Positions 1-15,901 of a DNA stretch of 17,172 nucleotides are shown one piece after another. A model generated the notes under the pieces. That model was not told where the DNA came from. It worked only from the letters and a program-made list of their open reading frames with translations, and made no database searches. The translations under genes and the position numbers were made by a program. The stretch covers positions 1-17,172 of the forward strand of contig CALAIO010000173.1 in the NCBI GenBank assembly GCA_937923355.1, written 5' to 3'. Source of the DNA: an uncultured Rhizobiaceae group bacterium. Its GTDB lineage: Bacteria > Pseudomonadota > Alphaproteobacteria > Rhizobiales > Rhizobiaceae. Every line of letters starts with the position of its first letter. Positions within the stretch are counted from its first letter, which is position 1.

Positions 1-800
1 ATATCCATGACTTTGTGGCTATCAATTTCTAATGGCTTACAAATACGGCCAATTTCATTTGCAAAACTTACCTTGGTTGCGTGCCAGACATTGTCGACGT
101 ATTTCACCATCTCAGCCACTTCAATGGTGGTCATGATGACATTTTCATCAACCGGATTATAAATATCTGCCACGATTTTTGCAGCACGCTCATCATTGGC
201 ACCGACAACTGTTTTTGGCGGTGCGTAGAAGTCCTCAATCGCTGAGCCTTCGCGAAGAAATTCTGGATTAAAAGCAATGCCAAAATCATCGCCCATTTTA
301 AGACCCGAAGCTTTTTCAATTTCGGGTACCATCACATCCAGCGTTGCACCTGGTGGAATTGAACAGCGCATGACAATGACGTGGTAAGAGCTTTTTTGAC
401 GTAAGCCTTTACCAATCGCTTGCGCTGCAGAGATAATATATCGGTAATCACAACCACCATCTTCACTCGTTGGCGTGCCAACAGACAGAAATGTTACTGA
501 CGTATCAATTACAGCACCTATCAAGTCAGTCGTTGCCGAGATCAGATTGTTCTGCACGCCTTCGTTTAAATATTTACCAAGGTCTTTCTCATGAATTGGG
601 GAAGTGCCTTCATCAATTTGTTGAACCTTGATCGTATCAACATCTACGCCAACCACACGGTGGCCAAGCTGCGATAGACAGGCTGTTGAAACTGCGCCGA
701 CATATCCAAGACCAACGACTGAAATGGCCGGTTTGTTAAAGTCGATTTCTGGTAGTGCGGTTGAGTATTCAAATTCAAACTTTTGAGCTAGTGCGTTCAT
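1..800 (-). CDS. algD: GDP-mannose 6-dehydrogenase, N-terminal 266 residues (partial at window edge)
   Basis: This cytoplasmic enzyme oxidises GDP-mannose to GDP-mannuronic acid with two NAD+, the committed step of alginate synthesis. The minus-strand frame is open from the ATG at 800 to the edge of the window, giving 266 residues of a protein usually near 436. The Rossmann motif GLGYVGAV begins at residue 30, about 24 residues later than in Pseudomonas AlgD, so there is a short N-terminal extension. The segments NPEFLREGSAIEDF and KYVDNVWHATKVSFANEIGR are typical of AlgD rather than of UDP-glucose dehydrogenases. The catalytic cysteine lies beyond the edge and cannot be checked. AGAGGA sits 8 bases before the ATG and supports this start. 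A sigma-54-like promoter and two activator-type sites lie upstream, so the gene appears to have its own promoter rather than relying on read-through from algI. Confidence 0.93.
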   Translation of the reverse strand, partial: MNALAQKFEFEYSTALPEIDFNKPAISVVGLGYVGAVSTACLSQLGHRVVGVDVDTIKVQQIDEGTSPIHEKDLGKYLNEGVQNNLISATTDLIGAVIDTSVTFLSVGTPTSEDGGCDYRYIISAAQAIGKGLRQKSSYHVIVMRCSIPPGATLDVMVPEIEKASGLKMGDDFGIAFNPEFLREGSAIEDFYAPPKTVVGANDERAAKIVADIYNPVDENVIMTTIEVAEMVKYVDNVWHATKVSFANEIGRICKPLEIDSHKVMD

Positions 801-841: not shown

Positions 842-857
842 TTCAATTCTTGTGCCA
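842..857 (-). promoter_or_regulatory. Candidate sigma-54 promoter of algD (weak -12)
   Basis: On the minus strand the sequence reads TGGCACAAGAATTGAA. The -24 half (TGGCAC) is perfect and the spacing to TTG of the -12 half is exact, but the -12 dinucleotide is GA, not the nearly invariant GC. The predicted start is near 831, giving a leader of about 30 bases with the ribosome site inside it. Two TTGCA-N3-TGCAA-like sites lie about 97 and 119 bases upstream. Taken alone this is moderate evidence; the same layout at the other promoters raises it. Confidence 0.6.
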
Positions 858-921
858 TTATAATTTATATAATAATTTCAGTTACTTATGTGTTTTTATG
901 ATTTAATTTTCGAGTAAGTTT

Positions 922-934
922 TTGCAATTTGAAA
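922..934. promoter_or_regulatory. LuxO-type enhancer site, algD proximal
   Basis: The sequence TTGCAATTTGAAA matches the palindrome TTGCA-N3-TGCAA with one mismatch. Its centre is about 97 bases upstream of the predicted algD start and 22 bases from the next copy, about two helical turns. Confidence 0.55.
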
Positions 935-943
935 AGATATTCT

Positions 944-956
944 TTGCGTTTTGCAA
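944..956. promoter_or_regulatory. LuxO-type enhancer site, algD distal
   Basis: The sequence TTGCGTTTTGCAA matches TTGCA-N3-TGCAA with one mismatch. Its centre is about 119 bases upstream of the predicted algD start. It lies just beyond the terminator of the algI operon, so it is not transcribed from that side. Confidence 0.6.
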
Positions 957-971
957 AGTTGAATTTTTGAC

Positions 972-1000
972 AAAAAAATAGCGGGTAAAATTACCCGCTA
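972..1000 (-). terminator. Rho-independent terminator after algI
   Basis: The inverted repeat TAGCGGGTA / TACCCGCTA (979-987 and 992-1000) forms a 9-bp stem with a 4-base loop. On the minus strand it is followed directly by seven T residues (978-972). It lies 24 bases past the algI stop codon and ends the SGNH-Sel1-algI transcript, separating it from algD. Confidence 0.92.
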
Positions 1001-1024
1001 TCCAAGTTCAATTTTTAGGAGCGA

Positions 1025-2530
1025 CTAAAAATTGAAGTAAATAAATTCCGTCAGATTGTTCAATCGATAGACCTGGATGATCGAACCAAGTGCTATGGCT
1101 GTTATTGCAAATGCCCAGACTGGCTTTGGTGCCCATTTGAACTGGAACAACCCAAAGAGCGGTCGCCCTAGTTCTTTAGCGGAGTTCAGAACAGGTCTGT
1201 ATTTACTCGTAAACTCAATACTGTTTGGCAGCAGTACGACAACCAGCAACATGAGGAGCAATTGATAAAGTATCAAGCCTGAAGCAGGAACGATCTCTTG
1301 CCATGTAGCGATGCCGATATATTCTGTTATTCCAAACATTGATTGAATCATAAGCGTTGCACCAGTGAACGTTTCTGCTCTGAAGAAGACCCACGCAAAA
1401 ACAACAGCTATCATTGTAACAAGCCAAGCTGAACATGCGTAAAGGTACGGATGTATTAAGACGCGTGTATTTTGCCCAAACCTTGAACCGCTCCAGGCAT
1501 GATTGATCATCAAATAGCCACCGTGTAATCCACCCCAGATTATGAAGTTCCAACCCGCTCCATGCCAAAGCCCACCTAAAAGCATGGTGATGATCAAGTT
1601 TCCTTTTGTGCCTAACATTCCAGATTTATTGCCACCTAGTGGAATGTATAGATAATCACGCAAGAACCTTGAGAGCGTGATATGCCAACAGCGCCAAAAC
1701 TCAACAATGCTCAACGCTCTGTAGGGTGAATTGAAGTTGATTGGTAATCGAATACCAAACATCAAGGCCAATCCTAACGCCATGTCGCAATAGCCTGAGA
1801 AATCAAAATAGATTTGAAATGTATATGCAAGCGCACCCAACCAGGCTGCTTCCATTGGCATGCTTGTTCCTTGGTCAGCCATCGTAAACACTGCATTTGC
1901 AACTGGCGCAATACCATCTGCCAGCACGATTTTCTTGAACAAACCGATGGCAAACAAAGTTGCCCCTGTCATAAGATTTGTTGCGTAGCGATTGCAAAAA
2001 TTACTCAGCTTAAATTGCGGGATAGTATCTTTTTGCATAACGATCGGCCCTGCAATGAGTTGCGGGAAAAACGTTACAAAAAGAACATATCGTTTAAAAT
2101 CACAGTCTACGAGTTTTTCCTGATAGGTATCTCGCAAAAATGAAATCTGTTGGAACGTATAAAACGATATCGCAAGTGGTAAAACCAGACCCAGTTCATC
2201 TGCTTGAATTCCGGTAATTGCTTTGAAGTTTCCGATGAAAAAATCAGCGTATTTAAAGACACCCAACATTAATAAGTTAGCCATGATGCCAAGCGCCAGA
2301 ACTGCTTTCGACTTATATTTCTCAAGATACAGGTGCACCAGATAATTGAAACCAACTGACATTAATAACAAGATCAGATGCTTTGGGCTCCAGCACATGT
2401 AAAAAACCAGAGACGCCACGATGAGCCACCAAATGATTGCGGTTTCAAGCCGCAAGGCGCGCAAGCAAAAGAAGCCAACGAGGACTGGTGGTAGAAACAA
2501 ATAAATGAACTCCAATGAACTGAAAACCAT
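1025..2530 (-). CDS. algI: AlgI, MBOAT-family alginate O-acetylation membrane protein
   Basis: This 501-residue inner-membrane protein of the MBOAT family is thought to pass acetyl groups across the membrane for O-acetylation of alginate in the periplasm. Hydrophobic segments fill the whole length. The family hallmarks are present: FWRCWHITLSRFLRDYLYIP with His283, and LGGLWHGAGWNFIIWGGLHG with His323, which corresponds to the essential histidine near 322 in Pseudomonas AlgI. Length is close to the usual 520. The ATG lies 4 bases after the stop of the Sel1-repeat gene, with only a weak purine-rich stretch before it, so translation is probably coupled. It is the last gene of its transcript, followed by a strong terminator. 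Periplasmic transfer partners of the AlgJ/AlgX type are not recognisable here; the SGNH protein two genes upstream may take that role. Confidence 0.94.
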   Translation of the reverse strand: MVFSSLEFIYLFLPPVLVGFFCLRALRLETAIIWWLIVASLVFYMCWSPKHLILLLMSVGFNYLVHLYLEKYKSKAVLALGIMANLLMLGVFKYADFFIGNFKAITGIQADELGLVLPLAISFYTFQQISFLRDTYQEKLVDCDFKRYVLFVTFFPQLIAGPIVMQKDTIPQFKLSNFCNRYATNLMTGATLFAIGLFKKIVLADGIAPVANAVFTMADQGTSMPMEAAWLGALAYTFQIYFDFSGYCDMALGLALMFGIRLPINFNSPYRALSIVEFWRCWHITLSRFLRDYLYIPLGGNKSGMLGTKGNLIITMLLGGLWHGAGWNFIIWGGLHGGYLMINHAWSGSRFGQNTRVLIHPYLYACSAWLVTMIAVVFAWVFFRAETFTGATLMIQSMFGITEYIGIATWQEIVPASGLILYQLLLMLLVVVLLPNSIEFTSKYRPVLNSAKELGRPLFGLFQFKWAPKPVWAFAITAIALGSIIQVYRLNNLTEFIYFNF

Positions 2531-2534
2531 CGTC

Positions 2535-3743
2535 CTAACCTTCTCTATTTGTATTGATTGATGAAGTGTCTATATTTTTTCTTGCTTCAATTTTTATAAT
2601 TTCATTCAAGAGCTTTTTGCTGCCTGAGTGCTTTAGAAGGGAACCCTGTTTAGCAAGCTCGCGGGCTTTCAATAAATTGTACTCGACGTGTTTGCCTTTT
2701 AAATAAAGGCGCCCCAGTTCTTCCATTGATCCTGGATGACCTGCCAAAATGCCTTTTTTGAAAAACTCGACAGACTTACGTTCTGGCAAGCCAAACTTGC
2801 TTTTTAGATGAAGTCTCCCAAGTGTAGTGATGGCGGCAGCGTAATCTCTTTTTATACTTTCATTTAAAAGCCCGATTACCTCATGCTTGATAGCCAATTG
2901 CTTATCTGTATCCATCAGCAAAATCGCCATGTCATGCATGGCAATGGCATCACCTAGACCTACAGCAATGGAGAGCCATTTTAAGGCTTCCTGTTTGTTT
3001 GGATCCATAATCATGCCATTCAAATACAGCCGACCAATACACCTTGCGGCACGTGCGTCTCCTGCCCTTGCAGCAGCTTCCAGCCTTGGCATAAACTCAT
3101 TTAAAATGGCGAGTGCTTTTTCAGGATTAGCAGGTAAGGATGAACTGCCTTTTGCAAGCAATTCAATTAAGGGAAGCACCGCTGAAGATGAATTATGACT
3201 GGCTGCAATTCTGTAATGCCTGAGTGCCAGTTCAATATTTTGCTCAACGCCAATTCCTCTTGCATATGATTTACCCAGTTCATTATGAGCTTTCATATAA
3301 CCCCATTGAACGGACTTGGTGAACCATTCAAACGCTATGCGCGAACAATCCTCACCTTTGGATTTTCGATATACCCTTCCCAGTTCGAATGCTGCCTTCG
3401 CACGATCCTTGAACGGTCGTTGAACGGCTTGCAGTAAGAGATTACGAGCTTTTTCGAGGTCACGTGACACGCCCCAACCTTTGACATAAAGCATGGCGTA
3501 TTCATATTTTGCCTGTACATTTGCACCAACAGCATTTTTAGAAAGTAGTTCTGCTGCCTTTTCCCAGTCCTTGTTCTTTGCAAAGGCCCTAGCTTTTAAA
3601 AGTTCCTGATGTGCAATTGGATCTGGCACATAAGAGACTAATGCGTTTTCCTTATGCAAAGAAAGTGCGCTTGAAACAATTACGGTTGAAAGGGAAGCAA
3701 GAATAGCAAATGAGGCTATTGTGAATTTCTTTTCTGAAGTCAT
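2535..3743 (-). CDS. Sel1-repeat periplasmic protein (AlgK-like role)
   Basis: I chose the ATG at 3743, giving 402 residues. It overlaps the stop of the upstream gene as ATGA, a classic coupling arrangement, and it places a hydrophobic signal or anchor segment right at the N-terminus (about residues 7-28). The longer reading from 3827 would add 28 residues overlapping the previous gene. From about residue 75 to 380 there are roughly eight Sel1/TPR-like repeats, for example LGRVYRKSKG, LGKSYARGIGV, IGRLYLNGMIM and LGRLYLKGKHV. Pseudomonas AlgK is also a repeat scaffold that holds the periplasmic alginate complex together. AlgK, however, is a lipoprotein, and no lipobox cysteine is visible here. 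The family and scaffold role are likely; orthology with AlgK is inference from context. Confidence 0.8.
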   Translation of the reverse strand: MTSEKKFTIASFAILASLSTVIVSSALSLHKENALVSYVPDPIAHQELLKARAFAKNKDWEKAAELLSKNAVGANVQAKYEYAMLYVKGWGVSRDLEKARNLLLQAVQRPFKDRAKAAFELGRVYRKSKGEDCSRIAFEWFTKSVQWGYMKAHNELGKSYARGIGVEQNIELALRHYRIAASHNSSSAVLPLIELLAKGSSSLPANPEKALAILNEFMPRLEAAARAGDARAARCIGRLYLNGMIMDPNKQEALKWLSIAVGLGDAIAMHDMAILLMDTDKQLAIKHEVIGLLNESIKRDYAAAITTLGRLHLKSKFGLPERKSVEFFKKGILAGHPGSMEELGRLYLKGKHVEYNLLKARELAKQGSLLKHSGSKKLLNEIIKIEARKNIDTSSINTNREG

Positions 3744-5047
3744 TTTTCCATTCTCCACACACGACAGTTTTCGCCCTGCCCAAGATGAATTGATTTGGCA
3801 ATTTGTTTTGAGGTTTCTGATCTGCACCGCACATCACGCTCGCGCTTCAACACTTTTTTGATCGAATCCTTATTTTTGGTGATGAGTGGAACGATTTGAC
3901 CAACGATTTGTCGGGCAACTTTTGAGTCAAAATGATAGGCATCGTTAAAGCGCCTTGCGTCTTCTGTCAGTGCATTGGGATAATCCAGATCGACTACCGT
4001 ACCCAGTTCAGCCAATTTCACTCGCAACTGATGGTTTAATTTGCCAAGGCCATTTTCCTGAATGGTATTTTGCAAATTTGTAATGGTAGGTGGAATTACG
4101 AAAATCAGATTTTTATCCTCTGATTTTGCCCAAGCACCTATTTCCTGAAAATGCTTCCAATAATTTTGGGAAAATTCAAATCCGCGCCAATCGGCTTTTC
4201 CGTTCTTGCGGACTTGCCTTTCATGTTTTTCTGGCAAGTCAGGGATTTGAGTGCTGACCCGATAAATTGATTGAAAATCTTGCCAATCATAATCAGGAAT
4301 ATCATATCCCCAACCATAGCTATCGAGACGATATCTTCCTGAGTATGTATATCCTTTGCGTAGAGTTTGCTGACTTACCGGTTTCAATCCGGTTGGCAAG
4401 TCACAACCAAAACAAACATCTGGTTCCAGTAGTTTTGAAAGGCTTGTTTTTCCTTCCTTTCCCAAAGAGCTCGCATTTGCTTGTGAGACAAAGGAGCCAT
4501 ACTGGGTGATTGCTTCTTCATGTTCTTTTTCAAAAACTTTGAGACTCGTCTGAAATACATTCCAGTTTTTTAAATATTCCAATTTGTGACGAACCAGTTC
4601 GACCGCTTCAGGAACCCTGTTCATGCCTCCTTTATGGTTTTCGTCGAAGCTGCGTAACTGCACTCCAATAACAAGGTTCCTGATTGCAGGGTCGGATTTG
4701 ATTACACTGAATGTGCTGAAAACTTCCGGGATCGTTCCACCGCCATAAGCCAGATTAAGCGCATGAGGGATATTTAACTCATGCCAATATTTATCGCGTA
4801 AGGCACGTGCTCTACTGTCACCCAAAATGATTGTATCGTGTGCGCCACGCTTGAACTTTGCCAATTTCCAAAGTGGGTAATGGGCTTTTTCCGCAATGTC
4901 ATTAATTGCCGTTGGGCGATCTTTTTTTGCAAACATCTGATACGGATCAACTGTCAGATTTAAAAAAGCTGGCACGGCACCCAGTCCAAAGGCTACTCCC
5001 AGCATGGGCAAGTATAAAGCTTGCTTTGTTTTTTGTGACTTTGGCAT
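3740..5047 (-). CDS. Membrane-anchored SGNH/GDSL-fold protein, likely alginate acetyl transferase or esterase
   Basis: The protein has 435 residues from the ATG at 5047. An earlier in-frame ATG at 5059 is rejected because GGAG (5054-5057) is well placed only for the second one, and the predicted transcript starts at about 5066. A hydrophobic segment (about residues 11-31) should anchor it with the rest in the periplasm. ILGDSR carries the candidate nucleophile Ser78, and the C-terminal DAYH gives Asp369 and His372 in the DxxH spacing of SGNH enzymes. It sits between alg8 and the Sel1 and algI genes, so acetylation or deacetylation of the polymer together with AlgI is the natural guess. In AlgJ and AlgX the DxH pair precedes the serine; here the order is the ordinary serine-first one, so this is not a simple AlgJ/AlgX orthologue. 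The substrate is not shown by the sequence. Confidence 0.82.
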   Translation of the reverse strand: MPKSQKTKQALYLPMLGVAFGLGAVPAFLNLTVDPYQMFAKKDRPTAINDIAEKAHYPLWKLAKFKRGAHDTIILGDSRARALRDKYWHELNIPHALNLAYGGGTIPEVFSTFSVIKSDPAIRNLVIGVQLRSFDENHKGGMNRVPEAVELVRHKLEYLKNWNVFQTSLKVFEKEHEEAITQYGSFVSQANASSLGKEGKTSLSKLLEPDVCFGCDLPTGLKPVSQQTLRKGYTYSGRYRLDSYGWGYDIPDYDWQDFQSIYRVSTQIPDLPEKHERQVRKNGKADWRGFEFSQNYWKHFQEIGAWAKSEDKNLIFVIPPTITNLQNTIQENGLGKLNHQLRVKLAELGTVVDLDYPNALTEDARRFNDAYHFDSKVARQIVGQIVPLITKNKDSIKKVLKRERDVRCRSETSKQIAKSIHLGQGENCRVWRMEK

Positions 5048-5076
5048 TTTGAACTCCATTTATTTACGAATAGAAT

Positions 5077-5092
5077 TGCAAAATGAGTGCCA
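5077..5092 (-). promoter_or_regulatory. Sigma-54 promoter of the SGNH-Sel1-algI operon
   Basis: The minus strand reads TGGCACTCATTTTGCA, a full match to the -24/-12 consensus with exact spacing. The predicted start is near 5066, leaving a leader of about 19 bases that contains the GGAG ribosome site and starts only 7 bases before the discarded first ATG. Two LuxO-type sites lie 96 and 117 bases upstream. Confidence 0.88.
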
Positions 5093-5155
5093 ATAAAATT
5101 ATACAACAATATCAGTTGCTTAGTTATTTTATTTTCTGATAATTGATTAATTTAT

Positions 5156-5168
5156 TTGCAGAATGCAA
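5156..5168. promoter_or_regulatory. LuxO-type enhancer site, SGNH operon proximal
   Basis: The sequence TTGCAGAATGCAA has both half-sites of TTGCA-N3-TGCAA intact. Its centre is about 96 bases upstream of the predicted start and 21 bases from the next copy. Confidence 0.72.
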
Positions 5169-5176
5169 AGCCTTAT

Positions 5177-5189
5177 TTGCAAATAGCAA
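5177..5189. promoter_or_regulatory. LuxO-type enhancer site, SGNH operon distal
   Basis: The sequence TTGCAAATAGCAA has one mismatch to TTGCA-N3-TGCAA and is centred about 117 bases upstream of the predicted start. It ends 6 bases from the alg8 stop codon. Confidence 0.65.
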
Positions 5190-5195
5190 AACCCA

Positions 5196-6791
5196 TTATG
5201 ACAGGATTGGCAGTACGTCCTTAAATTGAATATAACTGGGTATATCGACAAGATTTGTGTAATGAACCGTTGCTAAAAATAACAGCGCCACAGCAACGGT
5301 TGTACAAACGGAAGCCATCCAGTTTCTGAAGGTTTCGATGAAACTTTCGCCATTCATGCCAGCGGTCTGATTGCCACGATTAGACCAGCGTTGTTTGGAC
5401 AGTCGGAAAATACAATAGACTTTAACAGACGCATTGATGACCTGATTGAGATATAAAATCCATGAGTAGGAAAGCTCTACTTTTCGTGAGTATGTACACA
5501 ATACCAGAGATAATAAAAGCCGACTGATAGCGATAAAAATTATGTAGGACAGAAGATATTCTATGCCCACAAGAAATGCAGCTGAGATAGCTAACACGGG
5601 GCTTACCAACATCGTCCACATAGAGAGCCTTTGGTCAACCAGACACCACCATATGAAGAACGGCATTGCGCGGGGGCCAAGCGCAATGGCACGTTGACCA
5701 TTTCTAAGCATGTTGCCGGACCATCTTCTGAAATTTTGAACCATTCGCTCCATACCGGACCCCTCGATAACCTCAATCGTATAGCCGAGCGCATCCGGGA
5801 TGTAGAGCATGTGAGATTTGTGTTTCAGCATGAAGAACCAGGTACTTTTATCATCACCTGACAGAAAGCGGAATTTGCCCCATAGCCAGTGTTCAAGGTG
5901 ATCAGCTTCAAGCAATCTAATAAACTCTAATTGTTTTAAGTTCTTTGCTCTGAAAATCGACATACGTCCTGTTAGCGTTAGCACACGTCCTGAGAGTGCA
6001 TGCGATTGCATGGCAAGTCTTCTTTGGGAGAAGCGCATTTTCAACCAACGTTCAATCCAGCGTGGACCGATACAAATTACTTCTTCATCTGTCGTGCAGG
6101 CCTGAAGGTTTGGGTGAAGCTTAAACATCGGCATACAGCGGCTGATCGCACCTTCGCTTAGGACAAAATCACCATCCATGAAGATCACCAGATCATCATC
6201 CAGAACCGGCAAACGGCACATGGCTCGAAGCACCAAGCCAATTGCTGCACGCTTGCCGGATACATTTTGTCTGATAATGCGTAAAGTTACATCGACATCC
6301 ATGGCTTCGCGTTTGAGAAAATCAGAAATGATATCTTCATCAAACCGATCCGAAGACCCAAGCCATATGGTTCCGGGAACACCTGATGAATGTATTTCTT
6401 TCACAATCGAACGAACGACCATCTCGGTAATTTCACGATGCTCTTTGTAAGTGGTCATCATGAAATGAAGATGCCGTGGGCGCCAGCCGGATGCCCATAT
6501 CTTTTGGCCTTCACTGCGAAATTTTGGGTAAACAATACGACCATAAATCAAGGCACGGATTGCATGGGTAAACCACCATCCATAACGCCAAGCACCAAGC
6601 CCGCCAATCGTGAACGTAATCGCCATTGTTTTATGATCAAAAATTGTATTGGGCACGGTCAATAAACCGATGACGCATACCCCAATATACATGAAAATCC
6701 CAAGCAAGACTTTAGGTGTCCACTTGGCAAAACCCTTCGGCCAATAAGTCGGATCATCTACATGTTTTGAGGTATCAAATTGAAGTTTCAT
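5196..6791 (-). CDS. alg8: Alg8, mannuronan synthase catalytic subunit (GT2)
   Basis: This inner-membrane family 2 glycosyltransferase polymerises mannuronic acid from GDP-mannuronate and extrudes the chain, working with Alg44. At 531 residues it is slightly longer than Pseudomonas Alg8 (494). Hydrophobic segments flank the cytosolic catalytic domain: two near the N-terminus and several from about residue 370 on. The nucleotide-sugar DxD is FMDGDF (Asp206, Asp208), the acceptor or base region is FLSGDDKSTWF, and the QxxRW-like motif appears as QNFRRWSGNMLRN (Gln352 to Trp357), one residue longer than the usual form. The start overlaps the end of alg44 by 17 bases, and AGAGGA lies 9 bases before it, so the two are co-translated. 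No terminator is visible after the stop, so read-through into the SGNH gene is possible in addition to the internal sigma-54 promoter. Confidence 0.95.
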   Translation of the reverse strand: MKLQFDTSKHVDDPTYWPKGFAKWTPKVLLGIFMYIGVCVIGLLTVPNTIFDHKTMAITFTIGGLGAWRYGWWFTHAIRALIYGRIVYPKFRSEGQKIWASGWRPRHLHFMMTTYKEHREITEMVVRSIVKEIHSSGVPGTIWLGSSDRFDEDIISDFLKREAMDVDVTLRIIRQNVSGKRAAIGLVLRAMCRLPVLDDDLVIFMDGDFVLSEGAISRCMPMFKLHPNLQACTTDEEVICIGPRWIERWLKMRFSQRRLAMQSHALSGRVLTLTGRMSIFRAKNLKQLEFIRLLEADHLEHWLWGKFRFLSGDDKSTWFFMLKHKSHMLYIPDALGYTIEVIEGSGMERMVQNFRRWSGNMLRNGQRAIALGPRAMPFFIWWCLVDQRLSMWTMLVSPVLAISAAFLVGIEYLLSYIIFIAISRLLLSLVLCTYSRKVELSYSWILYLNQVINASVKVYCIFRLSKQRWSNRGNQTAGMNGESFIETFRNWMASVCTTVAVALLFLATVHYTNLVDIPSYIQFKDVLPILS

Positions 6792-8391
6792 CGTGGAAGA
6801 TCCTCTTTATCTTCGAGACCGTATTTCCAAGCTGATTATAGATTGCACTCGTTGAGCGTTTCGGGAAAACAACAACGGCTGGCAGGCCTGCGTAGATATA
6901 ATTCCGCTCTTCTTCCGTTAATTGAATCGTAAGGGAAACAGCGGCTGATTTTCCTTTTTGATCATCCCAAACATAATGTGATGCTTTGTCATTGATGAAA
7001 GCAGAGTTGCGGTCAATTTTGGAAACGGTTGCGGAAATATGTCTATCAAGCGCAGGAATAAAAATCTTGGCTTCATCGTAAAGTCCGATAGACAGGATTT
7101 GTTCCTGATCAAGGAAGGCCGTTACGGTTGGTTGCTCGTGTTTTTCGATCGTGAAAAGCTGTTCATTGCGCAGCACCATGATGTTGCCCGGCTGCTTAAC
7201 TGACACGATACGCCCATCAAACGGTGCCTTTATAATCATGCGCGTTTTCTCTACTTCAAGTTTTTCAACTTGCATGCTGGCAGCCATAACTTTTGCGTTT
7301 GCTTCTTCGATCTCCAAAGCCAACATATCCAGGTCTGAGACAAATTCTTTATGGTTGAAGTAACGTCTGCCAGAAACAGCATCCATTGCAGTTGCGCGTT
7401 CAAGATCAAACTCTGCTTCTTTTAATCGTCCCAAAGTATTTGATTGTTGACGGCGTAATTCATCCACTTTGCTTTCTGCAACCAGACCTTTTTTCCTTAA
7501 CTTCATTAAGCGTTCCAAATGGGCATCAGACGTTGCCAATGCCTGCTTTGCAGATTCAACACGCGCCTCTGCAATTTGACGGTCTGTTTTGTTGATAATC
7601 TGATAAAGCTTCATGCGTTGTTCTTCGATTTGATATCTCTCTTGAACCCGCGCAAGATTGCGTTTTGCCTGATCAAGGGCAATTCGCTTTTCATCCAAAT
7701 TGGTTTCAAACTTCGCATCGTGAATTCTGGCAATCGGTTGTCCTAGTTTCACGCGAATATCTTCTTGCATCAGAATTGGATGTAAGATGCCATCCATTGG
7801 CATTTTTATTGTGGCAAGTGGTGCTGAGACAACAGCAGATGACACTTCCATACGCATGGTCTTGCTGTAGATCAGAATGCTGAGATAGCCAAAAATACAA
7901 ACTGCAAGCAACGTATAAAACGTTGACATTACGATCAGTTTAATCGGCAATCTTTTTACCGGTACTTCATCTGCTGGATTGACATCAGGCTTTGTGGAAA
8001 TTGGCGTGACTGGAATATCAATTCTGCAGATTGTATCTTCAACTGTTGCCATTTGCCCGCGAATAAGATCATCAATGAAATGACTCATCAAATCATTTGC
8101 GCGCTCGTTTAGATTCTGAAATTCAAAACCAATTGTTTTGGCTTCCTCAACAGTTCTTACAACGCGAGCTTTCACTTCAAAGGCGATATCAAATCCTTGG
8201 AATGGCAGCTCCAATACAAGTTTGAGCTCCGCATTTACAGTTGGCAAATCACCCTTTACCGCATCAACGCGTAATCCGCCAATGCTCCAGTCTGTGGCCA
8301 TACAAGAGTAGCCATCAGGCATTGTAACTTTCATCGGGGCCTTGACGCGGTGATGACGACGTTGGCAAGGTTTTTCTCTTTCAATACGCAT
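6775..8391 (-). CDS. alg44: Alg44, c-di-GMP-binding PilZ/HlyD-like mannuronan synthase subunit
   Basis: Alg44 binds cyclic di-GMP and switches on the Alg8 polymerase. The N-terminal PilZ domain is intact: the RxxxR motif is Arg11-Arg12-His13-His14-Arg15, and the second motif DxSxxG is DWSIGG (Asp34, Ser36, Gly39). One transmembrane segment follows at about residues 147-175. The rest is periplasmic and resembles HlyD-type adaptor proteins, with a long heptad-rich hairpin at about residues 225-385 and a beta-rich barrel-sandwich part after it (KAPFDGRIVSVKQPGNI). At 538 residues it is about 150 longer than Pseudomonas Alg44 (389), the extra length being mostly the coiled-coil hairpin. AAAGGAG lies 6 bases before the ATG. 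It is the first gene of the leftward transcript, behind a sigma-54 promoter only about 15 bases away. Confidence 0.93.
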   Translation of the reverse strand: MRIEREKPCQRRHHRVKAPMKVTMPDGYSCMATDWSIGGLRVDAVKGDLPTVNAELKLVLELPFQGFDIAFEVKARVVRTVEEAKTIGFEFQNLNERANDLMSHFIDDLIRGQMATVEDTICRIDIPVTPISTKPDVNPADEVPVKRLPIKLIVMSTFYTLLAVCIFGYLSILIYSKTMRMEVSSAVVSAPLATIKMPMDGILHPILMQEDIRVKLGQPIARIHDAKFETNLDEKRIALDQAKRNLARVQERYQIEEQRMKLYQIINKTDRQIAEARVESAKQALATSDAHLERLMKLRKKGLVAESKVDELRRQQSNTLGRLKEAEFDLERATAMDAVSGRRYFNHKEFVSDLDMLALEIEEANAKVMAASMQVEKLEVEKTRMIIKAPFDGRIVSVKQPGNIMVLRNEQLFTIEKHEQPTVTAFLDQEQILSIGLYDEAKIFIPALDRHISATVSKIDRNSAFINDKASHYVWDDQKGKSAAVSLTIQLTEEERNYIYAGLPAVVVFPKRSTSAIYNQLGNTVSKIKRIFHDETSI

Positions 8392-8416
8392 GTGCTGCTC
8401 CTTTCATATCTATGGG

Positions 8417-8432
8417 AGCAAGAGGCATGCCA
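8417..8432 (-). promoter_or_regulatory. Sigma-54 promoter of alg44-alg8
   Basis: The minus strand reads TGGCATGCCTCTTGCT: TGGC and TTGC are perfect and correctly spaced. The predicted start is near 8406, giving a very short leader of about 15 bases that still contains AAAGGAG (8398-8404). LuxO-type sites follow 86, 107 and about 135-142 bases upstream. Confidence 0.85.
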
Positions 8433-8485
8433 TATAAAATTCTTATATATTACAGTAGGTTATCTTATTTACTATCTATGTGTGA

Positions 8486-8498
8486 TTGCATTTTGCAA
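8486..8498. promoter_or_regulatory. LuxO-type enhancer site 1 of the divergent region (perfect match)
   Basis: TTGCATTTTGCAA is an exact match to TTGCA-W3-TGCAA. It is centred about 86 bases upstream of the alg44 start and 164 upstream of the algA start. Its left arm (8486-8495) also forms a perfect 10-bp inverted repeat with 8510-8519 of the next site. Confidence 0.8.
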
Positions 8499-8506
8499 AA
8501 ATCTTT

Positions 8507-8519
8507 TTTCAAAATGCAA
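8507..8519. promoter_or_regulatory. LuxO-type enhancer site 2 of the divergent region
   Basis: TTTCAAAATGCAA has one mismatch to the palindrome. It is 21 bases from site 1, about 107 bases upstream of the alg44 start and 143 upstream of the algA start. Confidence 0.65.
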
Positions 8520-8534
8520 AGAAAATCACAGGTT

Positions 8535-8554
8535 TCGCATTTTGCAATTTGCAG
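8535..8554. promoter_or_regulatory. Two overlapping LuxO-type sites nearest algA
   Basis: Two overlapping copies share bases: TCGCATTTTGCAA (8535-8547) and TTGCAATTTGCAG (8542-8554), each with one mismatch to TTGCA-N3-TGCAA. Their centres are about 115 and 108 bases upstream of the predicted algA start, the usual enhancer distance, so these may serve algA while sites 1 and 2 serve alg44. Confidence 0.65.
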
Positions 8555-8629
8555 GTTTTACTATCCATAAATTGAGTAAAGTGTTGAATTAATTGAGCTT
8601 TCAATTTCATTTAAGTCTCGGACCAAAGA

Positions 8630-8645
8630 TGGCCTGAGCTTTGCA
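8630..8645 (+). promoter_or_regulatory. Sigma-54 promoter of algA-phosphomannomutase
   Basis: TGGCCTGAGCTTTGCA has TGGC and TTGCA at the exact -24/-12 spacing. The predicted start is near 8656, about 27 bases before the ATG, with AGGAG at 8672-8676 inside the leader. Confidence 0.87.
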
Positions 8646-8682: not shown

Positions 8683-10137
8683 ATGACACATAAACGCATC
8701 ACCCCGATTATTCTTGCAGGCGGTTCAGGCACAAGATTATGGCCTTTATCCAGACAGGACATGCCAAAGCAATTTTGTTCTATTGAAGGTGAGAAAAGCC
8801 TCTTTCAAAAATCACTAGAACGCGTACAAGAATCCAACTTGTTCAACCTGCCAATTATCGTGTGCAGCAAGCAGCATAAGTCTATCGTTACCACGCAATT
8901 GCTATCAGCCAATCAAACAGCACAGATGACAATTCTCGAACCTGAAGGTCGCGATACAGCAGCAGCAATTGCCCTGGCCGTACAACTGGCTGGTGGCGAT
9001 GCATCAGATCAATATCTGGTTATGCCATCTGATCACGAAATTGAAAACGTCAATGGGTTTCACACAACGCTTAAACAAGCGAAACCGATCGTTGCAAACT
9101 ATGACCGTATAGTTACGCTAGGTATTGAACCTGCTTATCCAGAGACCGGTTTTGGGTATATTCGCGCTGGTCAGGCACTTGGGAATTCAAATTGTAATGA
9201 GCTGATTGAATTCATCGAAAAGCCAAACTGCGAAACTGCAGAAATTCTCGTTCAGGAAAAAAACATTTTTTGGAATGCCGGCATTTTCTTTTTTAACGAT
9301 GCGGTTATTCGTAGAGAATTTCTAAAGCACTCTGCAGGCATATTTAATGATGTCGCAAGAGCGGTTGCGATGGGCAAATGGGAAGATGGGTTCTTTAATC
9401 CTGATACATCCGAGTTTTCCAAAATAAACCCATTATCACTGGATTATGCGATTATGGAAAAAACCGAATTTGCAAGTGTTGCTCCCCTTCAAGCAGATTG
9501 GTCCGATATGGGTTCCTGGAATACAGTTTGGGATTTGACAGAGAAGGATGAACAGCAAAACGTAAGCAAGGGTACATCGTATCATACAGAAACCGAGAGA
9601 TGTTACATTCAAACGGATGGACCCGTTGTAGGGGTTTGCGGGTTGGATGATATCGTTGTTGTGGCCAATCGGGATGCGGTTCTGGTGACCTCAAGAGAAA
9701 ACCCTCAAGGTGTCAAAAAATTGGTTGAGAAGATGAAACTCGATGAGACGCCTGTAGTAAAAAGTCATTCAGGTGAAAAAAGACCCTGGGGGCGTTTTGA
9801 CAGTCTGGATAAAGGCGAGACTCATCAGGTTAAAAACATCAAGGTAAACCCGGGTGGGCAACTTTCGCTGCAATATCATTTTCACCGCTCAGAACATTGG
9901 ATTGTGGTAAAAGGTGTTGCAACTGTAACTGTGAATGATGAAGTCACTCAGCTTATTCCTGGCCAACAAGTCTTCATCCCTCAGGGAGCGGTTCACAGAC
10001 TTGAAAACTTCACAGATGAAACGGTTGAGATTATTGAAGTTCAATACGGCACTTATTTTGGTGAAGATGATATTGTAAGGGTAGAAGATATTTACAATCG
10101 CTCTGCAACAGAAACACCAACCCAAGTAGCAGCATAG
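8683..10137 (+). CDS. algA: Bifunctional mannose-6-phosphate isomerase / mannose-1-phosphate guanylyltransferase
   Basis: The 484-residue protein catalyses two steps of GDP-mannose synthesis: fructose-6-P to mannose-6-P, and mannose-1-P plus GTP to GDP-mannose. The N-terminal nucleotidyltransferase domain has the pyrophosphorylase signature LAGGSGTRLWPLSR (from residue 11) and FIEKP (177-181). The C-terminal type II isomerase cupin carries RPWGRFDSLD, the metal-binding region LQYHFHRSEHWIVVKG and FIPQGAVHRLEN. Length matches AlgA/ManC/XanB. AGGAG lies 6 bases before the ATG. The phosphomannomutase gene follows after 9 bases, so the two enzymes that interlock in the pathway share a transcript. 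The name manC would fit equally well; I use algA because of the alginate cluster around it. Confidence 0.95.
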   Translation: MTHKRITPIILAGGSGTRLWPLSRQDMPKQFCSIEGEKSLFQKSLERVQESNLFNLPIIVCSKQHKSIVTTQLLSANQTAQMTILEPEGRDTAAAIALAVQLAGGDASDQYLVMPSDHEIENVNGFHTTLKQAKPIVANYDRIVTLGIEPAYPETGFGYIRAGQALGNSNCNELIEFIEKPNCETAEILVQEKNIFWNAGIFFFNDAVIRREFLKHSAGIFNDVARAVAMGKWEDGFFNPDTSEFSKINPLSLDYAIMEKTEFASVAPLQADWSDMGSWNTVWDLTEKDEQQNVSKGTSYHTETERCYIQTDGPVVGVCGLDDIVVVANRDAVLVTSRENPQGVKKLVEKMKLDETPVVKSHSGEKRPWGRFDSLDKGETHQVKNIKVNPGGQLSLQYHFHRSEHWIVVKGVATVTVNDEVTQLIPGQQVFIPQGAVHRLENFTDETVEIIEVQYGTYFGEDDIVRVEDIYNRSATETPTQVAA

Positions 10138-10146
10138 GAGGCTATG

Positions 10147-10890
10147 ATGAAGCGTATCTATTTATTTGATGTCGATGGCACTTTAACACCGCCACGTGCC
10201 CCTATGGATGAAAAGTTTTCCAAGTTCTTTCATGAGTTTACAATCTCAAATAAAGTCATCCTTATTTCGGGTAGTGATTACAAGAAAATCCAAGAGCAAG
10301 TACCGCAGGAAATCTTGGACGAATGCGATGGTGTATATGGTTGTTCAGGTGCCGAGTATTTTGAAAAAGATATCCTGATTCGTCGAAAGGAATATCAGTT
10401 TCCAAAGGAGTTGATGACCTTATGCGAAGCTTATGTTTCGGAAAGCAAATATGAATTGAGATGCGGCACTCATATTGAAGAACGTCCCGGTATGTTGAAT
10501 ATCTCGACCGTTGGCCGTGAGGCAACACCAGAACAGCGCAAGACATATCATGCCTGGGATAATGTCTATAAAGAGCGTATTGCCTTCGTTGATTTGATCA
10601 ATCAAAGCTCATTACCCTATGAAGCTTCCGCTGGAGGGGAGATAAGTATTGATATTGTTCCAGTAGGTTGGAATAAATCTGTTGTTAAAGGCGAAGTTTT
10701 AAAGAAATACCCTCACGCTTCGCTGCTGTTTTTTGGAGATCGCATAACTCCAAATGGGAATGACTTACCCCTTGCAGAAGCCTTGCTTGAACCTGAGGGT
10801 AAGCATGGCTCCAGGTCAGTCGATAGCTATCATGATACCTGGAAACTATTGGAAGCTGAACTTTCAATTTCCAAAGCACGGGTCGCCTGA
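10147..10890 (+). CDS. Phosphomannomutase of the eukaryotic (HAD) type
   Basis: The predicted reaction is mannose-6-P to mannose-1-P, filling the step between the two activities of AlgA. The 247-residue protein is a HAD-superfamily enzyme, not the large alpha-phosphohexomutase AlgC. The motif FDVDGTLTP carries nucleophile Asp8 and Asp10. GMLNISTVGR, SAGGEISIDIVPVGWNKS and FFGDRITPNGND line up by eye with human PMM1/PMM2 (GMLNVSPIGR, GGQISFDVFPDGWDK, FFGDKTMPGGND). Length matches PMM2 (246). AGGAGG (10136-10141) is 5 bases from the ATG at 10147 but only 2 from the ATG at 10144, so I prefer the second. A sugar-phosphate phosphatase is possible, but the position right after algA and the substrate-binding motifs favour the mutase. 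Confidence 0.87.
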   Translation: MKRIYLFDVDGTLTPPRAPMDEKFSKFFHEFTISNKVILISGSDYKKIQEQVPQEILDECDGVYGCSGAEYFEKDILIRRKEYQFPKELMTLCEAYVSESKYELRCGTHIEERPGMLNISTVGREATPEQRKTYHAWDNVYKERIAFVDLINQSSLPYEASAGGEISIDIVPVGWNKSVVKGEVLKKYPHASLLFFGDRITPNGNDLPLAEALLEPEGKHGSRSVDSYHDTWKLLEAELSISKARVA

Positions 10891-12292: not shown

Positions 12293-15277
12293 CTAATTGC
12301 TACGGGATGCTTTTTTGACATAATATTCTTCAACATTCTGGGTCGCATCGATTATCTCGCGCGTTTTTTTAATTAAAAGAGTTGCCTCATCATAAAGTTT
12401 TTCATGGTCATCACTATGGCAAACTTCATTTACACGGCTTGCGAGTTCAGATAGTTGCATAGCACCAAACATGCCAGACACACCTTGTATGCCATGTGAC
12501 GCCCTTTCTAGTAGTTCAGAATTTTTTTGCGCTAGACCATCATTTGCATTTGAAAGATAACGCTGAACATCATTGTTAAATTCACTAAAGATATTGGTCA
12601 CCGCTTCCGGTTCCATATCTTCCAAAATAGTATCCAATATCGCTATATCAAATTCGGTTATGTTTGATGTTTCGCTTGTCGATATCTGGGTAGCTTTGTC
12701 TTGTCCCAGATTAAGATTATCCAAAATAACTTTCGCAAGTTGATCTCTTGAAAATGGCTTTGGAATAAAACCATCCATCTTTGCTTCAGCAATTTTTGCC
12801 TGATCGTCTTTGCTTGCATAGGCAGTAAACGCGATGATCGGCAGTTCAGATTTTTGCTTGTTTTCTATATTTCGAATCTTTGCCGTTGCTTCATATCCAT
12901 TCAGTTCTGGCATTGAAATGTCCATTAGAATGATATCAAAATCGCTCATCATGACTTTTTCTACGGCTTCAATCCCATTATTGGCAATTTCAAACTGGCA
13001 GCCAAAATGTGAAAGGTATCGTGAGGTAATCAATTGATTGGTTTTATTGTCTTCAGCGATCAATACCCGAAGCTGTGATAAATCAGAAATTGGAAGCTCA
13101 TCATTTTCCATTACCTGCGTTAATTTATGACTTTCTTCAGAAGCCTTAAGCGCCAGATTAAACCAAAACTTAGAACCCTTACCCGGATTGCTGGAAAGAC
13201 CGATTTCACCATCCATGTTTTCAACCAGAGCTTTGCATATCGCCAAGCCAAGTCCTGTTCCGCCAAACTTGCCTGAATAACTTGCATCGATGGTTGAAAA
13301 CTCTGCAAAAAGATCAGCATGTTTTTCTTGAGGAATCCCTATACCTGTATCTTTGACAGAAAATGAAATTACATCATTCGTTCTGTTTTCAATCAGAATT
13401 TCAACCTTACCTTGTTCCGTAAATTTTATTGCATTCCATGACAGATTGAGAAGGATTTGACGAATTCTTGCCGCATCCCCCATTAAGAAATGAGGTATCG
13501 AGTCTTCGATTTCACAAACAAGCTTTAATTCCTTTTCATCGGCATGAGGCTGAATAAGATTGACAACAGAGGTTACCAATTCCCGTATGTTAAATGGTTT
13601 GTTTTCAATCTCAAATTTACCAGCTTCCAATTTTGAAAAATCCAATAGGTCATTGATAATTGTAAGGAGGGATTGGCCTGATTCCGAAGCCGTTTCCAAT
13701 AGTTGTTTTTGATCATCATCAAGTTTGGTTTCCTTCAGCAAACCATGGATACCCATGACACCATTGAGCGGTGTTCTTATTTCATGGCTCATCATTGCAA
13801 GGAAGCTGGTCTTGGCACGGGTAGCCATTTCTGCTGAATTTTTTGCATCCAGAAGCTGAGCTTCAAATGATTTTCGTTCAGAAATATCACGCGCATAACC
13901 GATGAATAATTTTCCCGTTGCTCCCTCAATTTCACGAATTGCCAGTTCAATTTGAATTTCATCACCACTGGCGTGTAGGCCTTCAATTTCAATTCGGTTA
14001 TCAAGCACAGGCCCTTCGCCCGTTGCAAGATAATGCTTCATGCCTTTTTCATGCGCTTCGCGGTAGCGATCTGGAATAATGACATCGCTTAGTTTCTTTC
14101 CGGAAATATCCTCAAATTTATGACCAAATATTTCTTCTGCTGCCGGATTAAAATTAATTATTTTGCCTTGATCATCGATCAGGATAATCGCATCCATTGC
14201 CGCATTCATGGCATTTTCAAATTGTGCTTTGGCACGTTTTTCATTGGCAAGCGCCTGCGTTCTTTGTGAAGCATCTCTGATAAACCCGGCAAAACACACC
14301 TTGCCTGATGCATTAAACTCTGAAATTGAAAGTTCTATATCAAACTCGGTGCCATCTTTTTTTACACCAATGGATTCAAAACTATGTCCCACTAAATGGC
14401 TTTCATCTGTTTCCATGTAATGTTTGATTGCATGTTTTAATAATTGTGCATTTTCATCTGACATTAAGTGAGAAACATTTTGTCCGATCAACTCAGAACC
14501 CTGATAATCAAACAAGGTTTCAATTGCCGGATTTAGTCTTTCTATCTGTCCATTACGATCAACGATTACAACGCCATCAACTGATGACTGCAAAAGCTCT
14601 TCGAAGATTTGAATATTTTCTTCTGCTTTGAGGTTTGCAAATGCCAAATCTTCAATATGCGCCGTATTAGCGACGAACTGTCGAGCATTTTTGGTATAGA
14701 TCGCAAGAATGAAAACAACCGCCGCATAACCTGCAGCGAGTTCAAATACCGCACCTACCAACAATTTATCAGAAGAAATATATTCCGCATAAGAAGTGGT
14801 AATGTCGGCACCATTGATGATGGCTAACGTAAATATGCCAAGCCAGCCTGCAAGAACTGTACTACCTGCAACAAGAATGCTCCACGGATCGGATCGTAAT
14901 ATCCTAACAACTGTATAAAGACCCAAAAAGATTATTGTTGGCGTTTTAAACGTCGCTTCCAGTGGCAAGCTATAGGCATGATTATATGAAAGCATTAATC
15001 CAAAAATCAGCATGCCATCAAAGACGGTCAGAGTATGCGAATAAAAGTTACTCAATCTATCAGCATATGATGCCCTAACTCTAAGCAGAGAAGTCATCAA
15101 TATCATTGCAGCTATACCAATAGTGACAGCACTGATTGTTGCCCATTGGTTCTTTGATGCTGAAATAATATGAAGCATGAAGATCGTGAAAGCCATAAGT
15201 CCTTGCAGAACACCAATGGCTCTCTCACCTTTACGATCATTGTTGCTAAGTATCTCTTTAATTCTACTATTTTGCAT
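12293..15277 (-). CDS. Hybrid sensor histidine kinase with 6 TM, two PAS, REC and Hpt domains
   Basis: The 994-residue inner-membrane kinase is predicted to pass phosphate His to Asp to His and then to the adjacent response regulator. About six transmembrane segments occupy residues 22-195, with no large periplasmic domain. Two PAS domains follow (about 225-345 and 355-475), both with NPA motifs ([18 protein letters not shown]). HisKA has His498 in [10 protein letters not shown]. The ATPase has the N-box variant [12 protein letters not shown], then DTGIGIP and GGTGLGLAI. The receiver has Asp786 in LMDISMP. The C-terminal Hpt has His928 in [14 protein letters not shown]. All phosphotransfer residues are present. 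The built-in Hpt replaces the separate LuxU-type protein of the Vibrio quorum relay and resembles SypF. The signal is unknown. No strong ribosome site precedes the ATG, so the exact start is less certain. Confidence 0.92.
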
Positions 15278-15697: not shown

Positions 15698-15747
15698 TGG
15701 CGCACTCGGGAAGATTCGAACTCCCGACCCCTTGATTCGTAGTCAAG
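15698..15747 (-). pseudogene. 3' half of tRNA-Arg(ACG), likely integration attachment site
   Basis: Read on the minus strand, the segment contains a complete anticodon arm (CTTGA-CTACGAA-TCAAG, anticodon ACG), variable loop, T arm (GGGAG-TTCGAAT-CTTCC) and the 3' acceptor strand with encoded CCA. The D arm and the 5' acceptor strand (expected GCACTCG) are absent; the sequence beyond 15747 is unrelated. A tRNA 3' half directly next to a tyrosine recombinase gene is the usual footprint of an integrated element. Given the orientation, the restored full tRNA-Arg gene should lie at the far, right-hand end of the element. Confidence 0.85.
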
Positions 15748-15761
15748 TCACCAGAAGATTT

Positions 15762-15778
15762 CAGTATATTCCATACTG
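15762..15778. repeat. Short inverted repeat next to the attachment site
   Basis: CAGTAT and ATACTG flank a 5-base spacer, 15 bases inside the element from the tRNA homology. It could be a binding site for the recombinase or an excision factor. It is short and could be chance. Confidence 0.3.
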
Positions 15779-15858
15779 TTGCAAAACTGCTGAAAACTAT
15801 AGATTTTTAAGGGTTATTGCTGTATCATAACGTTTCATACAAAACATATTGGTTCGCT

Positions 15859-15880
15859 TTTTTGTGACCTTTTTGTGACC
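15859..15880 (+). repeat. Tandem 11-bp repeat upstream of the integrase gene
   Basis: TTTTTGTGACC occurs twice in direct tandem, ending 21 bases before the integrase ATG. One helical turn per copy and this position suit arm-type sites for the integrase or an operator for control of its own promoter. The role is inference. Confidence 0.55.
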
Positions 15881-15901
15881 TTTTATCAAAATTGAGCTTT
15901 T

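Follow-up and report, generated by a model that had tools for sequence, protein, structure and literature searches.

In Vibrio fischeri, the RscS-SypF-SypG relay, with the Hpt domain in SypF, is described as controlling the syp polysaccharide locus, and the sites of SypG and LuxO overlap at qrr1 (PMC10162802). The upstream activating sequence (UAS) of LuxO is given as TTGCAWWWTGCAA (PMC10162802), and an alanine scan of LuxO found eleven essential residues, including S423, I425, Y426, R427, and K428 (PMC11407668). For alginate itself, AlgB of the KinB-AlgB pair in Pseudomonas aeruginosa is an NtrC-family response regulator with a GAFTGA motif and is required for algD transcription (PMC6932827). 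PrsK-PrsR is a two-component pair encoded next to exopolysaccharide genes, and at another place the same genome has a PEP-CTERM gene that depends on RpoN (PMC9850573). Francke et al. 2011 associate sigma-54 generally with exopolysaccharide genes and mention AlgB for alginate; the word LuxO is absent from the main text of that paper (PMC3162934). This study concerns a gene cluster in 17,172 nucleotides of DNA from an uncultured Rhizobiaceae group bacterium (contig CALAIO010000173.1; the whole stretch is referred to as the window), which very probably encodes a self-contained phosphorelay-to-sigma-54 switch, resembling LuxO and SypG, for an alginate-type (acylated, mannuronate-based) polysaccharide. 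No account of LuxO-type control of alginate genes was found among the titles and abstract openings listed from the open-access literature.

By analogy, the closest working parallel is RscS/SypF-SypG-syp: there, the Hpt domain of a hybrid kinase feeds a sigma-54 activator that switches on a polysaccharide locus, and a like arrangement is proposed here, where the locus, with enhancer-like intergenic sites, adjoins the regulator gene. The two differ in that the kinase adjoining the regulator here has its own Hpt domain, in that the genes proposed to be controlled here form a synthase-type, mannuronate-like cluster of Alphaproteobacteria, and in that the sites are LuxO-like (TTGCA-N3-TGCAA), unlike the SypG consensus TTCTCANNNTGMDWN. 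The site, sigma-54, the paired upstream sites, and the recognition helix SPSTIYRK are features shared with the Vibrio LuxO-Qrr system (PMC10162802, PMC11407668), from which the window differs by a regulator that scores under the LuxO equivalog cut-off, by the lack of any Rfam match in the window, by biosynthetic genes as the proposed targets, and by a kinase and Hpt domain joined in one protein. As with KinB-AlgB, an NtrC-family GAFTGA response regulator is tied to algD (PMC6932827), and as with PrsK-PrsR, a two-component pair lies beside polysaccharide genes, although the exopolysaccharide genes near PrsK-PrsR seemed independent of RpoN1 (PMC9850573). The model for PrsR, the PEP-CTERM-box regulator (TIGR02915), gives the window regulator 381.4 bits, below its cut-off of 502.6. 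The parts of the proposed switch, their positions, their conservation, and their helical phase are evident from the DNA of the window and its relatives, beginning with these promoter and enhancer elements (IHF, integration host factor):

842..857, minus strand: -24/-12 element of algD, TGGCACAAGAATTGAA, a variant whose core ends in TTGA
879..888, minus strand: IHF-like element of algD, TAAGTAACTG, 31 bp upstream of its -24
922..934: UAS 1 of algD, one mismatch
944..956: UAS 2 of algD, one mismatch
5077..5092, minus strand: -24/-12 element of the SGNH-Sel1-MBOAT unit, exact core
5113..5122, minus strand: IHF-like element of SGNH, TAAGCAACTG, 30 bp upstream of its -24
5156..5168: UAS 1 of SGNH, perfect
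5177..5189: UAS 2 of SGNH, one mismatch
8417..8432, minus strand: -24/-12 element of alg44-alg8, exact core
8453..8462, minus strand: IHF-like element of alg44, TAACCTACTG, 30 bp upstream of its -24
8486..8498: UAS in the alg44/algA divergent region, perfect
8507..8519: UAS in the alg44/algA divergent region, one mismatch
8535..8554: overlapping pair of UAS (8535-8547 and 8542-8554), at distances of 90 and 83 bp, respectively, from the -24 of algA
8630..8645, plus strand: -24/-12 element of algA and phosphomannomutase (PMM), exact core, TGGCC variant

Paired LuxO-type sites, an IHF-like element, and a -24/-12 element thus precede each of algD, the SGNH-Sel1-MBOAT unit, and alg44-alg8, and algA-PMM has a -24/-12 element with sites nearby. 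The GG and GC of sigma-54 promoters stand at -24 and -12 with the fixed spacing, algD (TTGA) and algA (TGGCC) being variants, and the centers of the closest tandem sites are separated by 21 or 22 bp. The original prediction, made from the window alone, had named these four elements and a full TGGC-N7-TTGC core in three of them, and both statements agree with the coordinates found here; the distances it quoted for the sites fit predicted transcription starts but do not fit start codons. With at most one mismatch, TTGCANNNTGCAA has nine matches in the window against 2.50 expected, and none of 200 shuffles reached nine. The three intergenic regions, at 615 bp, make up 3.6% of the window and hold eight of the nine (binomial P 2e-11), and when the overlapping pair is counted once, seven of eight sites are intergenic (P 6e-10). 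Dinucleotide shuffles of these regions gave a mean of 0.15 sites (maximum 3) against the 8 observed and a mean of 0.036 exact -24/-12 cores (maximum 2) against the 3 observed, with neither observed number reached in 5000 shuffles. Among all 1024 5-base half-sites with a 3-base gap, TTGCA is the most frequent in the window with 8, the next having 3, and 30 shuffles gave at most 3.

Conservation was examined in related loci (L-numbers), with G-numbers for the genomes of relatives. Alignment of Alg44 found 39 loci in the genome collection, the nearest being in metagenome-assembled genomes named 'uncultured Rhizobiaceae group bacterium', and extra loci came from order, family, and class samples, in which 16 of 297, 11 of 394, and 6 of 385 genomes matched at E 1e-60. 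The order histidine kinase-regulator-(PMM-algA)-alg44-alg8-SGNH-Sel1-MBOAT-algD recurs with variations, and the linkage of a LuxO-like activator and hybrid kinase to the cluster recurs across many Alphaproteobacteria. In 26 clusters, window included, a LuxO-like gene of at least 45% identity lies in the stretch; for these linked clusters a sigma-54 element was accepted when GG and G were fixed and at least six of eight further positions agreed, and the counts omit L038 and L039, which are stretches of already counted loci, and upstream pieces below 150 bp. Sigma-54 elements were found at alg44 in 23 of 26 clusters, at SGNH in 20 of 22, and at algD in 16 of 18, and a TTGCA or TTCGA site in 17 of 26, 16 of 22, and 12 of 18, respectively; random stretches of the same loci gave 3.2% for sigma-54, 3.5% for TTGCA, and 0.7% for TTCGA. 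L001-L003 and L013 are close relatives and do not count as independent of the window; when it and L001-L003 are left out, sigma-54 elements remain in 19 of 22, 17 of 19, and 13 of 15 clusters and sites in 13 of 22, 13 of 19, and 9 of 15 (alg44, SGNH, and algD).

Alignment of each promoter of the window with three near loci shows the invariant columns gathered on the sites and the -24/-12 elements. The algD element, mostly invariant in this footprint, has counterparts in L001, L002, and L013, and the algA element has counterparts upstream of algA in L001, L002, L003, L005, L009, L015, L032, and L036; upstream of algA in L014, L021, and L022 no -24/-12 counterpart is among the elements listed. 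The count of 1024 half-sites covered seven groups of loci. TTGCA is first in the nearest relatives (23 against 8 for the next; shuffled maximum 7) and in eight more distant loci (24 against 8; shuffled maximum 4), and it is not first in L014/L015 (TTGCG 4, TTGCA 3, shuffled maximum 3) or in L028/L031 (best TTTGA 3, shuffled maximum 3).

Distances from the -24 to the site center group near 60, 71, 81, and 92 bp. Helical phasing at 10.5 bp has R=0.61 over 33 promoters, with one site per promoter and L001-L003 and L013 omitted, and none of 20000 uniform draws was as high. Between the sites and the promoter lies the IHF-like TAA-N4-YTG, which had no place in the original prediction and which resembles the IHF consensus YAANNNNTTGATW. 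Within 50 bp upstream of the -24, 39 of 81 promoters have this element, compared with 3.4% of shuffled spacers; in 22 of the 39 it sits at 30-31 bp and in 12 at 39-40 bp, positions that differ by one turn. All three tested window promoters have it at 30-31 bp, and it is frequent at SGNH (19/27) and algD (13/18). IHF is often present at RpoN-dependent promoters (PMC7962754).

In L021, L022, and L034 most promoters are kept and TTGCA sites are absent. There TTCGA is the most frequent half-site (10), ahead of GATTT (8) and AATTT (7), against a shuffled maximum of 3; GATTT and AATTT can overlap the A/T-rich palindromes counted as TTCGA. Most TTCGA sites stand at the helical distances of the TTGCA sites in other clusters, and the regulators of the three loci form one clade (100/100) whose placement within the family is weakly supported (83/65). 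The sites of this one regulator clade have apparently been recoded to TTCGA-N3-TCGAA. The recognition helix of this clade reads SPSTLYRKR. A single recognition-helix residue as the cause of the change was rejected, since L084, L118, and L037 also have STLYRK and lie beside clusters with TTGCA sites.

The genome-wide frequency of the motif was determined in relatives' genomes rather than in the host of the window. Across 20 genomes, together about 87 Mb, there are 48 copies of exact TTGCAWWWTGCAA, and a reversed-pattern control occurs in one place. Of these sites, assigned by the author from coordinates and neighboring genes, 21 belong to the loci studied here: 16 to alginate-type loci and 5 to linked kinase, regulator, or secretion operons. 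A composite of site and -24/-12 element gave 21 matches in 12 of 21 genomes and none for the control, with 13 matches at alginate-type loci (two on one promoter), 1 before a Pelagibius operon, and 7 elsewhere, and the regulon may have members beyond the cluster. Applied to the class sample of 385 genomes, a stricter composite hit 5 genomes once each, and the 6 genomes matched by Alg44 were not among these; one hit lies by another sigma-54 response regulator, one by a receiver-domain gene, and one before a FlgA-like gene.

Several sites away from the biosynthetic genes are described here as observations in their own right. Type I secretion genes (ABC, HlyD) lie by a kinase and LuxO-like gene, with exact sites upstream, in L073 (749-10669) and L069 (3055-10707). 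In Pelagibius (L067, 6001-12708), a site and -24/-12 element stand before an operon with two kinases and a LuxO-like gene, an arrangement that suggests autoregulation; upstream of the window kinase, neither a site nor an exact -24/-12 core was found. L085 (6001-6090), from the genome of L032, has a small open reading frame preceded by a -24/-12 element and by two perfect sites spaced 18 bp apart, and is a possible further member of the regulon. A Qrr-like RNA at the extra sites of L085 and L048 was considered and set aside, small open reading frames following both promoters by eye; no terminator was found on the promoter strand of either, L085 having none at all and L048 two on the opposite strand. 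L050 (1501-2157), from the genome of L034, has a gene with a mannose-6-phosphate isomerase-type cupin domain, upstream of which lie an exact site and a -24/-12-like element.

The regulator has the receiver, GAFTGA AAA+, and Fis-type helix-turn-helix domains of LuxO. LuxO is its top match in NCBIfam, the second being the PEP-CTERM regulator, and also its best match in the PDB (5ep0, 457 bits); against the LuxO equivalog NF041946 it scores 588.8 bits, under the cut-off of 800. The nearby LuxO-like activator with intact GAFTGA named in the original prediction is therefore present, though below the equivalog cut-off. Its recognition helix, SPSTIYRK, is identical to residues 421-428 of LuxO, and it keeps seven of the eleven residues reported as essential in LuxO (I411, L418, S423, I425, Y426, R427, and K428; PMC11407668). 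Among the 120 closest homologues, 98 have GAFTGA, 11 have GSFTGA, and 11 have neither, and the recognition helix is SPSTIYRKK in 72 and SPSTIYRKR in 36. A tree of one LuxO with the alginate-linked regulators did not resolve the backbone, where long branches meet, and its use for polarizing the two groups was dropped. LuxO-like matches above 500 bits were found in 14 of the 15 relatives' genomes searched, and in each of the 14 one such regulator lies on the alg44 contig by coordinates (at most about 14 kb away, or about 34 kb in G013); the Colwellia genome had no LuxO-like match above 500 bits. The best LuxO-model match per relative genome is 388.7-625.8 bits, in no case above the cut-off. The Pelagibius genome has a second LuxO-like regulator above 500 bits (L040, G016:C6:179762-181147) on a contig other than that of its alginate-type locus. 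AlgB works with the sigma factor AlgT rather than RpoN, and the regulator of the Bermanella cluster (L033), 29% identical and with a different recognition helix, might at a guess be AlgB-like.

Ten genes of the window form one block, with the following assignments:

3..800, minus strand: algD-like NDP-sugar (GDP-mannose-type) dehydrogenase, truncated at the window edge; Pfam and PDB matches
978..1001: perfect inverted repeat; a T-rich run comes after it on the minus strand
1025..2530, minus strand: MBOAT acyltransferase (AlgI/DltB-like); profile matches
2535..3827, minus strand: Sel1-repeat protein in AlgK-like position; weak AlgK match, 36.7 bits
3740..5059, minus strand: SGNH acyltransferase-like protein with N-terminal helix; fold matches and conserved residues
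5196..6791, minus strand: Alg8-like family 2 glycosyltransferase; Pfam
6775..8391, minus strand: Alg44-like PilZ plus HlyD-type protein; Pfam and structure-profile match
8683..10137, plus strand: algA-like mannose-1-phosphate guanylyltransferase/mannose-6-phosphate isomerase; TIGR01479, 515.5 bits against a cut-off of 372.95
10144..10890, plus strand: eukaryotic-type phosphomannomutase; PF03332
10896..12275, minus strand: LuxO-like response regulator with REC, GAFTGA sigma-54 AAA+, and Fis-type helix-turn-helix with SPSTIYRK
12293..15277, minus strand: hybrid histidine kinase with two PAS, HisKA, HATPase, REC, and Hpt domains; Pfam

The start of algD is probably the ATG at 800 rather than the GTG at 836 given by the open reading frame listing, as the ribosome-binding-like AGAGGAAT lies upstream of it, and the inverted repeat is likely a terminator separating the MBOAT unit from algD. 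In the SGNH protein, GDS lies at 80-82 and D373 and H376 are invariant in 30 sequences. A gene for an RTX calcium-binding repeat protein directly follows algD in L001, L002, L005, L007, L021, L032, L034, and L036, so it may be switched on together with algD and perhaps co-transcribed; the window itself stops inside algD, short of the corresponding region. At the right edge of the window (15708-17170), a phage-type integrase lies beside a weak tRNA-like stretch (18.8 bits against a gathering score of 29), and an integrative element may border the cluster.

Such a switch would start with the hybrid kinase, in which phosphate would pass from His to REC to its own Hpt domain and on to Asp54 of the activator. 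The phosphorylated activator would bind the paired sites, and IHF would bend the DNA and help looping between the sites and the promoter. ATP hydrolysis through GAFTGA would then open sigma-54 polymerase at all four units jointly. The synthase may then be gated by cyclic di-GMP via the PilZ domain of Alg44.

Several results weigh against this reading. The original prediction had TTGCA-N3-TGCAA in each intergenic region, and while the placement holds, only two of the eight sites are perfect, with one mismatch in each of the other six, and just one of the two has the A/T-only center of the published LuxO consensus. Four residues essential in LuxO (G409, N410, V420, and L429) are changed in the window protein (PMC11407668), only 7 of 36 alg44 promoters have the IHF-like element, and recognizable UAS are lacking in some clusters with a linked regulator (L121, L131, and the alg44 of L028, L029, and L030), L121 being without a promoter as well and L131 having promoters but no recognized sites. 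In clusters without the regulator in the stretch, the promoter is kept at alg44 in 13 of 24, at SGNH in 7 of 13, and at algD in 2 of 12, and UAS at alg44 in 9, at SGNH in 5, and at algD in 3; in L010, L012, L013, and L017 the regulator is either more distant or placed on a different contig of that genome, and for others, such as L128, none was seen. This frequent retention of promoters slightly weakens the case for the LuxO-like regulon and slightly raises that for a different NtrC- or Fis-type protein at real sites and real sigma-54 promoters, the neighboring LuxO-like gene having its targets elsewhere. Relatives' genomes each hold 25-59 matches to the LuxO model, mostly weaker and many to the receiver domain only, 27 of the 48 exact TTGCAWWWTGCAA sites in the 20 genomes are outside the loci studied here, and no one residue of the recognition helix explains the difference between the TTCGA clade and the users of TTGCA. 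This alternative is nevertheless improbable given the regulator above 500 bits on the alg44 contig in nearly all genomes searched, a recognition helix that is LuxO's own, and TTCGA sites whose helical phases match those of the TTGCA sites and which go with a single regulator clade; moreover, seven distant Alg8/Alg44 clusters with no regulator in the stretch (L120, L122-L126, and L129) have neither sigma-54 elements (0/7) nor UAS (0/7) at alg44. An ordinary quorum-sensing LuxO, driving mainly Qrr-like small RNAs with the polysaccharide genes secondary, would fit the best NCBIfam and PDB matches of the regulator; the score under the equivalog cut-off, the lack of any Rfam match in the window, the Hpt domain within the kinase, and the concentration of exact sites in the clusters of relatives make it very improbable. 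Chance matches, which the AT-rich look of the intergenic regions and the six imperfect sites might suggest, are refuted by the 5000 dinucleotide shuffles and by positions and phases conserved at 47-65% regulator identity, and hardly any weight is left to them. The local LuxO-type/sigma-54 regulon proposed in the original prediction is thus the best-supported reading, having passed the comparative test: the positions of the intergenic sites are conserved in relatives, where exact sites are also rare and concentrated in cluster loci rather than equally common across the genome.

The name of the polymer is tentative. The window has the alginate core of a GDP-mannose dehydrogenase, an Alg8-type synthase, a PilZ Alg44, and precursor genes, with Alg8 and Alg44 assigned by domains and gene order rather than by an equivalog model. 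The regulon could be real and the polymer another acylated polysaccharide made by an Alg8/Alg44-like synthase, which would make the name alginate wrong; this is rather unlikely but keeps appreciable weight. The epimerase AlgG, lyase AlgL, porin AlgE, and AlgX were not recognized among the ten proteins of the window, which stops inside algD, the AlgK model gives the Sel1-repeat protein far less than its cut-off of 700 bits, and the MBOAT protein matches the DltB model. The fold matches listed for the SGNH protein are DltD, PatB, and other SGNH esterases, with neither AlgX nor AlgJ among them, so that both identities were rejected and only the SGNH fold is claimed. On the other side stand the genes of the GDP-mannuronate route, with algA above its cut-off, a phosphomannomutase, and a dehydrogenase whose top PDB match is GDP-mannose 6-dehydrogenase (241.6 bits, above UDP-glucose dehydrogenases), and an Alg44 profile that matches the Alg44 PilZ structure, although weakly. 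The alginate label of the original prediction therefore holds for the mannose route and the Alg8/Alg44-type genes and is otherwise conjectural, with no epimerase, lyase, or outer-membrane porin recognized in the window.

If the LuxO-like switch is as proposed, a known quorum-sensing transcription code would be tied to how Alphaproteobacteria regulate an alginate-type matrix polymer. The whole proposed system, from sensor and activator to enhancers and targets, fits in one 15-kb block, which would make it portable to a laboratory strain, and the apparent natural switch of sites in one clade offers a ready system for learning how LuxO-type helices read DNA. It is possible, although we hold this only tentatively, that TTGCA-N3-TGCAA with LuxO-type activators is an old polysaccharide switch of Alpha- and Gammaproteobacteria, with the Vibrio Qrr use coming later and one alphaproteobacterial clade naturally recoded to TTCGA-N3-TCGAA. 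The cluster may thus hint at where the original role of LuxO-like regulators might be sought.

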